Positions 4,065-43,368 of a DNA stretch of 64,000 nt are shown piece after piece. The stretch covers positions 434,001-498,000 of the forward strand of contig NZ_JACCBH010000001.1 in NCBI RefSeq assembly GCF_013409745.1, read 5' to 3'. Every line of letters begins with the position of its first letter. Positions within the stretch are counted from its first letter, which is position 1. Source of the stretch: Microbacterium pseudoresistens (GTDB taxonomy: Bacteria; Actinomycetota; Actinomycetes; Actinomycetales; Microbacteriaceae). The notes beneath the pieces were generated by a model that was not told where the DNA came from, ran no database searches, and worked only from the letters and a program-made list of their open reading frames with translations. A program made the position numbers and the translations under genes.

Positions 4065-4140
4065 TGGAGCCGACTGCGGGACTCGAACCCGCGACCGCCT
4101 GTTTACAAGACAGGTGCTCTACCAGCTGAGCTAAGTCGGC
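4065..4140 (-). tRNA. tRNA-Thr (anticodon TGT)
   Basis: Complete cloverleaf on the minus strand. Acceptor GCCGACT pairs with AGTCGGC. D-arm AGCTCAGCTGGTAGAGC, anticodon stem CCTGT/ACAGG with loop CTTGTAA, and T-arm GCGGGTTCGAGTCCCGC are all present. CCA is encoded at 4065-4067. The anticodon TGT reads ACA threonine codons. Confidence 0.97.
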
Positions 4141-5327: not shown

Positions 5328-5420
5328 GGCGCTGGCCCGATGGCGGGCCACGGCGGGTCGTTCCGCCGCTTCCATCACAACGGATCGTCCGGCACGTACC
5401 TGCCGGTGAAGGAGAAAACA

Positions 5421-6527
<1,107 letters not shown>

Positions 6528-21708: not shown

Positions 21709-23418
21709 ATGCCGACCGTCTCCGCGCACGTCGCGCTCACCCTCGCCCAGCACGTCGACCACGTCTTCGGCCTCATGGGCAACGGCAACGCCTATTTCCT
21801 CGACGCGCTGTCCACCCAGACCGACGCCTTGTTCACCGCCGTGCGCCACGAGCAGGGCGCGGTCGTCGCCGCCGATGCGCACTACCGCGCCTCGGGGCGC
21901 ATCGCCGCAGCCACCGCCACCTACGGCGCCGGGTTCACGAACACGCTCACGGCGCTCGCCGAGTCGGTGCAGGCGCGCATCCCGCTCGTGCTCGTCGTGG
22001 GCGACGAGCCGACCTCGGGCCCGCGCCCGTGGGATGTCGACCAGATCGCGCTCGCCTCGGCGGTGGGCGCGCGCACCTATACGACGGGGCGCGCGGATGC
22101 CGCGGCCACCACCGTCATCGCGATCGAGCATGCTCTCACCTACCGGGTTCCCGTCGTGCTCGCGATCCCGTACGACGTCGCGGCGCTCGAGGCCGGCGTC
22201 GTGCCCGAGGCGCCCGCGCCGCGCGTTCCCGTGGCGCTCGCCCCCGCGGGCGAGTTCGCCGACGGGATGCTCGACGAGATCGCTGCAGCGCTGCGCGGCG
22301 CCGAGCGTCCGTTCCTGCTCGCCGGGCGCGGGGCGTGGCTCGCCGGTGCAGGGGACGCACTGGGCGCCCTGGCCGATCGGGTCGGAGCCCTGACGGCATC
22401 CACCGCGCTCGGCCGGGGTGTGTTCCCCGCCGCGGAGTACGATCTCGGGGTGACGGGCGGGTTCGGCGCCGAGGGCGCCATGTCGCTCGTGCGGGAGGCC
22501 GACGTCGCGGTCGTGTTCGGCGCATCCCTCAACCAGTTCACGATGCGCTTCGGCGAGCTCTTCGCACCGGGAACGCGCGTCTTCCAGGTCGACGTGGCCC
22601 CCGCGGCGACGCACGCGCACATCGGCGGGTTCATCCGCGGCGACGCGCGGCTGGTCGCCGAAGCGCTCGTCGACCGTCTCACCTCCGCGAGAAACCCTTC
22701 TCTGCATGAGAAACCCCGCTCTAGGGGGTTTCTCATGCAGGAAGGGGTTTCTCACCGCGCGCCGTGGCGCGATGCGGATGCCGTCACCGCCGCCCGCGCG
22801 TACGCGCCCGGCAACGAGCTCGCCCCCGACGGCCGGCTCGATCCCCGCTCCGCCGCCCGCCGCATCGCCGAGCTGCTGCCCGACGACCGCGTCGTCGTCT
22901 CCGACGGCGGGCATTTCATCGGCTGGGCGAACATGTACTGGCCGGTCGCGTCGCCGGATCGGATGATCATGGTCGGCACCGCGTTCCAGTCCATCGGTCT
23001 GGGCTGGCCGAGCATCGTGGGCGCAACCAGGGCCCGACCGGAGTCGACGGTCGTGCTCACCAGCGGCGACGGCGGCGGGCTCATGGCGATCGCCGATCTC
23101 GAATCCGCCGTGCGCTCGGCCGCCGGTCGCGGGATGGCGGTGATCTGGAACGACGCCGCGTACGGCGCCGAGGTCAACCTCTACGGGCTGAAGGGGCTCG
23201 CCGAGGGGCCGATGCGCATCCCCGAGGCCGACTTCGCCGCGCTCGGCACGGCCGCCGGCGGCGAAGGCGTCGTCGTGCGCCGCCTCGAAGACCTCGACCG
23301 GCTGGGCGAATGGGCCGCGGAGGATCCCGCAGAGCGGCGCTTCCTCGTGCTCGACCTGCGCATCTCCGGCGATGTCGTGGCTCCTTACCAGCAGGAGATC
23401 ATCCGCGTGAACTCCTGA
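21709..23418 (+). CDS. thiamine diphosphate-dependent enzyme (acetolactate synthase/decarboxylase-like) with an inserted palindrome
   Basis: 569 residues. N-terminal PYR domain with the catalytic Glu48 (AVRHEQGAVVAA), a central domain ending near residue 325, and a C-terminal PP domain with the ThDP/Mg motif TSGDGGGLMAIAD ... VIWNDAAYG. It resembles acetolactate synthase or 2-oxoacid decarboxylases; the substrate is unknown and no regulatory subunit is adjacent. Residues about 327-349 are encoded by a nested palindrome (22689-22753), which appears as extra linker between the central and PP domains. GAAAGG about nine bases before the ATG supports the start. Confidence 0.9.
   Translation: MPTVSAHVALTLAQHVDHVFGLMGNGNAYFLDALSTQTDALFTAVRHEQGAVVAADAHYRASGRIAAATATYGAGFTNTLTALAESVQARIPLVLVVGDEPTSGPRPWDVDQIALASAVGARTYTTGRADAAATTVIAIEHALTYRVPVVLAIPYDVAALEAGVVPEAPAPRVPVALAPAGEFADGMLDEIAAALRGAERPFLLAGRGAWLAGAGDALGALADRVGALTASTALGRGVFPAAEYDLGVTGGFGAEGAMSLVREADVAVVFGASLNQFTMRFGELFAPGTRVFQVDVAPAATHAHIGGFIRGDARLVAEALVDRLTSARNPSLHEKPRSRGFLMQEGVSHRAPWRDADAVTAARAYAPGNELAPDGRLDPRSAARRIAELLPDDRVVVSDGGHFIGWANMYWPVASPDRMIMVGTAFQSIGLGWPSIVGATRARPESTVVLTSGDGGGLMAIADLESAVRSAAGRGMAVIWNDAAYGAEVNLYGLKGLAEGPMRIPEADFAALGTAAGGEGVVVRRLEDLDRLGEWAAEDPAERRFLVLDLRISGDVVAPYQQEIIRVNS
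22689..22753. repeat. nested palindromic element A, in frame inside the ThDP gene
   Basis: Two 29-nt arms (22689-22717 and 22725-22753) are complementary at 26 of 29 positions around a 7-nt centre. The three mismatches fall at arm positions 10, 12 and 13. Each arm holds GAGAAACCC twice, 19 nt apart, so the element has four copies of one word, two per orientation. It is read through without a stop as linker residues about 327-349 of the enzyme. Confidence 0.9.
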
Positions 23419-43194: not shown

Positions 43195-43252
43195 ACGGAT
43201 TCGAAAAAGGATGTGTTGTTCCTCATCGGCCCAGGCGCGCGGTCGAATCCGT
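43195..43252 (-). promoter_or_regulatory. 10-bp helix around the ZTP riboswitch 3' part, next to the glyA ribosome site
   Basis: ACGGATTCGA in the aptamer linker (transcript 43252 to 43243) is exactly complementary to TCGAATCCGT (43204 to 43195), two bases before the GAGGAGG ribosome site (43192-43186). This helix is a candidate expression platform linking ligand binding to translation. Confidence 0.55.
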
Positions 43253-43300
43253 GATGGTCGCTCCCCGGTGGTGACCCACCCAGACGCCAGTCGCGACGCC
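43226..43300 (-). ncRNA. ZTP riboswitch (pfl motif) controlling glyA-folD
   Basis: The transcript carries the conserved blocks of the pfl/ZTP aptamer in order: CGCGACTGGCG (near 43295), GGTGGGTCACCACCGGGGAGCG in two halves across the hairpin, a variable linker, and CCGCGCGCCTGGGC (ending at about 43229). Known ZTP riboswitches sense the purine intermediates ZMP/ZTP and turn on folate and purine genes such as glyA and folD, exactly the genes here. No strong intrinsic terminator separates it from glyA; see the helix at 43195-43252. Confidence 0.93.
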
Positions 43301-43368
43301 TCCGAGCATACCCGAGCGATGGCCTCTGACGGATGCGTGTTCCGACGGGTGCGCGATAGGTTTTGTTC

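Follow-up and report, generated by a model that had tools for sequence, protein, structure and literature searches.

A nested palindromic repeat family of Microbacterium with an in-frame copy in the interdomain linker of a ThDP-dependent enzyme

In the window, the whole 64-kb stretch of Microbacterium pseudoresistens DNA that was analysed, the gene of a ThDP-dependent enzyme carries a nested palindrome that is translated in frame between two domains. It is quite probable that this palindrome is an inserted copy of a family of the genus, here called F1, that the linker in which it lies has been occupied several times, and that the family has spread in a transposition-like way through an agent other than a Y1/RAYT transposase. 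The copies of F1 are dispersed and near-fixed in length, the insertion adds residues in frame, and several families use the same linker. In-frame coding palindromes are best known from Rickettsia, and they are now found in a high-GC actinobacterial genus, in dozens of genomes.

The palindrome and its host gene

The palindrome in the window, first described as two 29-nt arms with a motif present four times, is confirmed. The 5′ arm (22689..22717, +) and the 3′ arm (22725..22753, +), each 29 nt long, pair at 26 of 29 positions (90% complementary) across a gap of 7 nt, and together they make up the 65-bp nested palindromic element at 22689..22753, which has no strand of its own. The motif GAGAAACCC occurs four times in the 64-kb window, twice on each strand and always inside the palindrome, a number reached in none of 100 shuffles. 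Copy 1 (22689..22697) and copy 2 (22708..22716), which follows it after 19 nt, are on the plus strand, and copies 3 (22726..22734) and 4 (22745..22753) are on the minus strand. The RNA fold of 22680-22762 has an energy of −53.2 kcal/mol (z −8.3), and none of 200 shuffles is equally stable. The boundary is best placed one base further out on each side than in the first-pass annotation. In all 51 copies whose flanks were compared, drawn from many genomes, C or T precedes the element and G or A follows it, in all four combinations, including 7 copies with C..A and 11 with T..G; the count leaves aside five further copies with a length of 64 nt or a position near a contig end. Since Y before and R after are found in every copy and in every combination, the F1 unit is YGAGAAACC...GGTTTCTCR, 67 bp, which corresponds to 22688-22754 in the window.

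The gene in question (21709..23415, +; stop 23416-23418) encodes a ThDP-dependent enzyme of 569 aa. Pfam places TPP_enzyme_M at residues 189-320 and TPP_enzyme_C at 399-545, with a TPP_enzyme N domain also present, and the insert lies between the first two, so that the in-frame interdomain linker proposed from the sequence at the outset is borne out. The palindrome corresponds to about residues 327-348 (~22 residues), and the codons of residues 326-349, SARNPSLHEKPRSRGFLMQEGVSH, at 22684..22755 (+), lie in a hypervariable linker between the central and PP domains. Compared by sequence, the nearest relatives of solved structure are TPP enzymes, acetolactate synthases among them, and the similarity is low. 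In an AlphaFold2 model of mediocre quality (mean pLDDT 67.9), residues 329-349 fall below pLDDT 50 and are coil, flanked by helices 313-326 and 356-363. The extra ~22 residues probably form a flexible loop that the enzyme would tolerate at no cost.

A known structured RNA was considered and rejected, as no Rfam family is found at the site at the gathering threshold. Elsewhere in the window, Rfam identifies an msiK RNA at 5363-5421 (+; 64.7 bits) and a ZMP/ZTP riboswitch at 43222-43304 (−; 52.2 bits), and a tRNA is located at 4068-4140 (−).

F1 as a dispersed family of the genus

Searches of the genome and the genus for further copies, called for at first pass, were productive. The source genome (G000), one contig of 2,914,491 bp (2.9 Mb), contains nine full-length F1 copies and one 32-nt match according to R1, a covariance model built from eight copies; eight of the nine are exactly 65 bp long and one is 64. 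The copy in the window has the highest F1 score of the genome, 83.6 bits, and is also among the eight used for the model. In genus-wide model scans (E<=0.01, with rough calibration, capped scoring and strict filters), R1 matches 83 of 149 Microbacterium genomes and is without a match in 66. An exact-pattern search had found F1 in 0 of 98 other genomes, a misleading zero because relatives mostly carry GAGAAACCAC, and these copies were found by the covariance model.

Dispersed copies inside one genome have a mean identity of only 71-76%, and few of them therefore look recent. The conservation is uneven: among copies of the same genome, compared in three genomes with 7, 11 and 8 copies, identity amounts to 86-92% in the four motifs but only 53-64% in the arm spacers and 43-54% in the loop. 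Motif columns that outlast spacers and loop in this way are not what plain decay of inert copies gives. Two explanations may account for them, namely that copies must be intact to multiply, as in replicating REPIN populations, or that the arrays serve as binding sites for a protein and are kept by selection where they stand; presence and absence of copies between sister species favours the first. Covariation of the arms beyond the consensus is weak (A1), the observed pairing being reached in 23 of 500 shuffles and the covariation score in 14 of 500, with own-arm pairing of 23.1 vs 22.5 across copies for F1 in the source genome.

The placement of copies on chromosomes is biased in some genomes. 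In G070, where dnaA is at position 1 (L336), the F1 copies (15) and the copies of a further family, F4 (23 of 24), that were listed cluster near the replication origin, with median relative origin distances of 0.18 for F1 and 0.25 for F4 (KS p about 2e-4 each, for top-scoring or first-listed copies). In the source genome, whose GC-skew minimum was placed coarsely at 1.2-1.5 Mb, the nine F1 copies lie nearer to this minimum (p 0.009-0.022, depending on the origin assumed), and in G033 the bias of 10 F1 copies is non-significant (p 0.19).

These data bear on the idea that the palindromes have a function as arrays for DNA binding, in chromosome organisation or in the manner of BIMEs, recognised by a putative YGAGAAACC binder and selected locus by locus, with the coding copies as ordinary sites that fall in a gene. 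The idea draws on motifs that stay alike while spacers and loop drift, on Y/R flanks that all 51 copies keep, pairable or not, which fits a reading of DNA over pairing in RNA, and on the clustering near dnaA in G070. We nevertheless regard it as unlikely: copies that must be intact in order to multiply could show conserved motifs too, sister species differ in which family they have at the ThDP linker or in having any, F1 finds no match in 66 of 149 genomes under strict filters, and the origin bias is not significant in G033.

The relationship of the coding copies to the dispersed ones varies between genomes. The coding copy of the source genome has a mean identity of 0.76 and a maximum of 0.86 to the copies of its own genome and 0.72 to the ThDP copy of G146, values that are suggestive of kinship with its own genome's copies. 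For the G146 coding copy, identity to the dispersed copies of G146 (0.72) is no higher than identity to the G033 copies (0.75), and the same holds for the G033 coding copy, with 0.70 for its own genome and 0.71 for G000. In another genome, G132, the ThDP gene has a cluster of at least two F1 matches right beside it (L026 1201-1423, L228), and the linker of that gene is itself long, with no F1-F3 assignment.

The ThDP linker and copies in other genes

ThDP homologues are present in 149 of 149 genomes of the genus, in some only as distant paralogues. A set of 70 loci (30 from the homologue search and 40 chosen) and 80 records yielded 150 ThDP genes with both anchors, 125 of them distinct, in which 8 to 100 residues separate the anchors. 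In all but one of the 125 distinct genes, hence in 124, the linker length is divisible by 3. The exception, L052, suggests a frameshift or sequence error in a genome (G090) that is 68% complete, and it was not placed on the tree. On the resulting tree of 124 rows, made by a quick method with SH-aLRT support only and rooted at the midpoint, all 41 genes outside one clade (support 99) have short linkers of 8-16 residues, and the 83 genes inside it comprise 38 with short and 45 with long linkers (25-100 residues), all long ones in frame. The residues are missing outside one clade and thus represent an insertion, as was suspected, and the alignment contained no homologues carrying the same residues in unrelated codons.

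Among the 45 long linkers, 32 are matched by family models: two by F1, 21 by F2, eight by F3, and one by F3 followed by F2. The F2 model (R2, 84 bp) was built from twelve F2-type copies, one of which is the F2 part of the F3-F2 linker, and the F3 model (R3, 76 bp) from five F3 copies; the remaining F2 and F3 linkers were found by the models, which were run on 58 of the 80 record loci, on L016 and L017 and on eight other unassigned loci. One of the 21 F2 linkers, L043, bears the label 'other' on the tree, which was not rebuilt after it was recognised as F2 when scanned alone. Like F1, these families are dispersed, with matches (E<=0.01) in 88 of 149 genomes for F2 and 69 of 149 for F3, and neither was found in the source genome by model scan. 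The other 13 long linkers have no clear match to the F1-F3 models, two of them matching weakly (L204 to F2, E 0.0015; L038 to F3, E 0.0085). Five of the 13 (L019, L022, L191, L042 and L204) have ends that by eye resemble those of F4, AACTCCGGA...TCCGGAGTT. This end pattern is present in 38 of 149 genomes, as against 0 of 149 for a reversed control; G070 has 24 forward matches and G041 has 15. The pattern spans 73-75 bp in most copies among the matches listed, within a range of about 73-81 bp. The linker of one clade has been occupied several times by at least three dispersed families, F1, F2 and F3, and F4 is probably a fourth.

Alternatively, a single ancestral insertion could have diversified later within the ThDP linker. 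Every long linker does belong to a single clade, and like labels sit together on the tree, all labels requiring 28 changes vs a shuffled mean of 42.7. We consider a single insertion improbable, since 5 changes would suffice and 28 are required, sisters with long and with short linkers alternate, and the occupants are different dispersed families with lengths of 65, 84, 76 and about 73-81 bp. The minimum number of changes, losses included, is 14 for F2, 5 for F3 and 2 for F1, and those forced by well-supported branches number 8, 5 and 2, respectively. The F2 linker of G028 has a short-linker sister, L175, and the F2 linker L161 groups with L057 and L059, both short. The sisters G041 (F4-type) and G106 (F3) share 45 identical nt and then diverge; the F4-type element of G041 starts at the point of divergence, and the F3 element of G106 starts, as judged by eye, some 15 nt later. 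The ThDP linker therefore offers replicated natural insertions with short-linker sisters as controls.

The linker also lengthens in other ways, through low-complexity runs and tandem arm repeats, as is seen from the long linkers that match no family. Linkers that bear F2 have grown further, with tandem copies resembling F2 arms in G107 (L047) and G142 (L050) and a Ser-Pro run in G124 (L046), reaching up to 100 residues in these three genomes and remaining in frame. In an F3 copy of G106 (L280 1501-1576), a unit, CGCTTCGCGCGGA, is repeated 19 nt apart in one arm; this spacing is the same as that of the F1 motifs, a similar architecture without evident shared sequence.

Coding copies also recur outside the ThDP gene. 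Among top-scoring copies, a crude ORF caller flagged 13 of 54 F1, 1 of 23 F2 and 8 of 20 F3 copies as coding, including three of the other eight copies of the source genome (L005, L008 and L010). Of the 22 flagged copies, a frame-composition test upheld on both sides only the one in the window together with L261 and L283, and L280 was a borderline case; a coding frame was upheld for none of the other eight F1 copies of the source genome. An earlier frame test, which caught 14 of 18 ThDP copies given to it and 0 of 59 others, misses some. L261 (G033) is an F1 copy in frame in what is by eye a biotin-dependent carboxylase subunit and L283 (G068) an F3 copy in frame in what is, likewise by eye, an ABC-F ATPase, and the borderline L280 (G106), of which we are less sure, would be an F3 copy in frame in a membrane protein. 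The same carboxylase linker has an F1 match in G010 (36 bits, E 5e-9) and none up to E 1 in G002, G013, G004, G001 or G012, the last of which had by eye been taken for a decayed F1 copy. The carboxylase insertion is not clean, as the linkers of G002, G013 and G004 are variable and 6-10 residues shorter than that of G033. The idea of a coding palindrome of the Rickettsia type in an actinobacterium, put forward in the first-pass annotation, holds.

The four coding F1 copies supported by the model (ThDP in G000 and G146, carboxylase in G033 and G010) use one common reading frame, and the possible decayed copy of G012, recognised by eye alone, would fit it. When 49 other copies are read on both strands, 82 of the 98 readings have this frame open, as against 54 and 61 for the other two; a T at the Y position gives TGA in both of these less open frames. 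The pattern ARN....EKP....F...VS is common to the G000 and G033 enzymes, with variations in G146 and G010, and could be taken to mean that the peptide is of use, for example in binding or regulation, and that the repeat has been kept for the protein. This is very improbable, as DNA motif and open frame together account for the pattern, the peptides that other families give at the ThDP linker are unrelated, and many sisters are without any insert.

Most sampled copies outside the ThDP gene have no coding frame. According to crude gene calls on the top-scoring sample, 75 copies judged non-coding lie between convergent (38), tandem (29) or divergent (8) genes. The convergent share and the strong hairpin would suit bidirectional transcription terminators or mRNA stabilisers at gene ends; however, for REPs a similar 3′-end bias has been reported (PMC3733652), the window copy has no T run after it, other copies are in frame within enzyme genes, and conserved motifs at near-fixed length exceed what a hairpin needs. 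A role of this kind is unlikely.

Spread of the copies and comparison with known systems

The Y1 transposase domain PF01797 (Y1_Tnp), found in 5 of 14 known genomes used as control, is present in one of 149 genomes of the genus (G040) and absent from the source genome, which makes a RAYT-driven REP/REPIN unlikely; a GTAG or CGTC tetranucleotide end was not found, the ends of F1 being YGAGAAACC. In 51 F1 copies, direct repeats at the borders stay close to expectation (2 nt, 11 seen and 9.2 expected; 3 nt, 1 vs 1.1; 4-8 nt, 0), and a DDE-type MITE with target duplication was rejected on this basis. Terminal inverted repeats are present in F1, and a half-site scan of viral_contigs for a parent element returned one hit, which from its surroundings was taken as chance. 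A plasmid or phage origin was also discarded, as blastn of the 83-bp stretch gave no phage record and one weak plasmid record (Rahnella, E 0.05).

On the reading we prefer, F1 is a small dispersed Microbacterium family, a nested palindrome of near-fixed length with four YGAGAAACC-type motifs, two per arm as direct repeats 19 nt apart, one copy of which has entered the ThDP interdomain linker in frame. Its dispersal and its presence or absence between relatives point to mobility. The copies have likely spread by a transposition-like copying of the palindrome that creates no target duplication, and a Y1/RAYT transposase of these genomes is probably not the enzyme responsible. Inside genes, insertions would survive only in linkers that can take extra residues, and only with an open frame. 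Repeated occupation of the ThDP linker would thus arise because a change of length is accepted there, provided that what is added is a multiple of 3 and has its frame open. The mobile family tolerating coding insertion envisaged at first pass gains from the dispersal and the recurrent in-frame copies, while its mobility stays a matter of likelihood, as neither a mover nor an autonomous partner was found.

A bolder version, which we offer tentatively, is that a set of Microbacterium palindrome families is moved by an unrecognised, duplication-free, non-Y1 mechanism working on repeated-motif arrays, and that the interdomain linkers of certain enzymes are recurrent in-frame landing pads for different families. 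If so, selfish DNA would repeatedly rewrite the same stretch of the same protein. Neutrality, rate of arrival and the movement of palindromes without RAYT become testable in this system.

Among known systems, the Rickettsia palindromic elements (RPEs) are comparable in working style. They comprise several short families per genus, located between genes and in frame in conserved genes, and the inserts are tolerated as extra residues, with a Wolbachia report cited there (PMC10969869, PMC2229807). F1 likewise is a palindromic repeat that is both dispersed and in frame in protein genes. In contrast, the Microbacterium families measure 65-84 bp vs about 100-150 bp for RPEs, the host is a high-GC actinobacterium, most sampled copies outside the ThDP gene are non-coding, and several families share a linker.

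REPs have been described inside genes of other bacteria, the listed cases being mostly proteobacterial, and in recB of Xanthomonas different REPs lie at about the same site (PMC3733652). With REPs and REPINs, F1 shares dispersed palindromes, the bias to 3′ ends and some intragenic copies, and the recB site, as described there, parallels the ThDP linker. Unlike the GTAG and CGTC families, F1 has no GTAG/CGTC end, a larger unit and direct-repeat motifs 19 nt apart, and a Y1 transposase occurs in only one of 149 Microbacterium genomes. DDE MITEs, which are non-autonomous, resemble F1 in small size, terminal inverted repeats, near-fixed length and dispersal, but F1 lacks their target-site duplication (51 copies). 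Among the open-licence literature matches listed, no title describes a Microbacterium element of this kind. In-frame palindromes in Rickettsia and intragenic REPs are known; what is notable here is the phylum, the lack of a RAYT and the repeated occupation of one linker.
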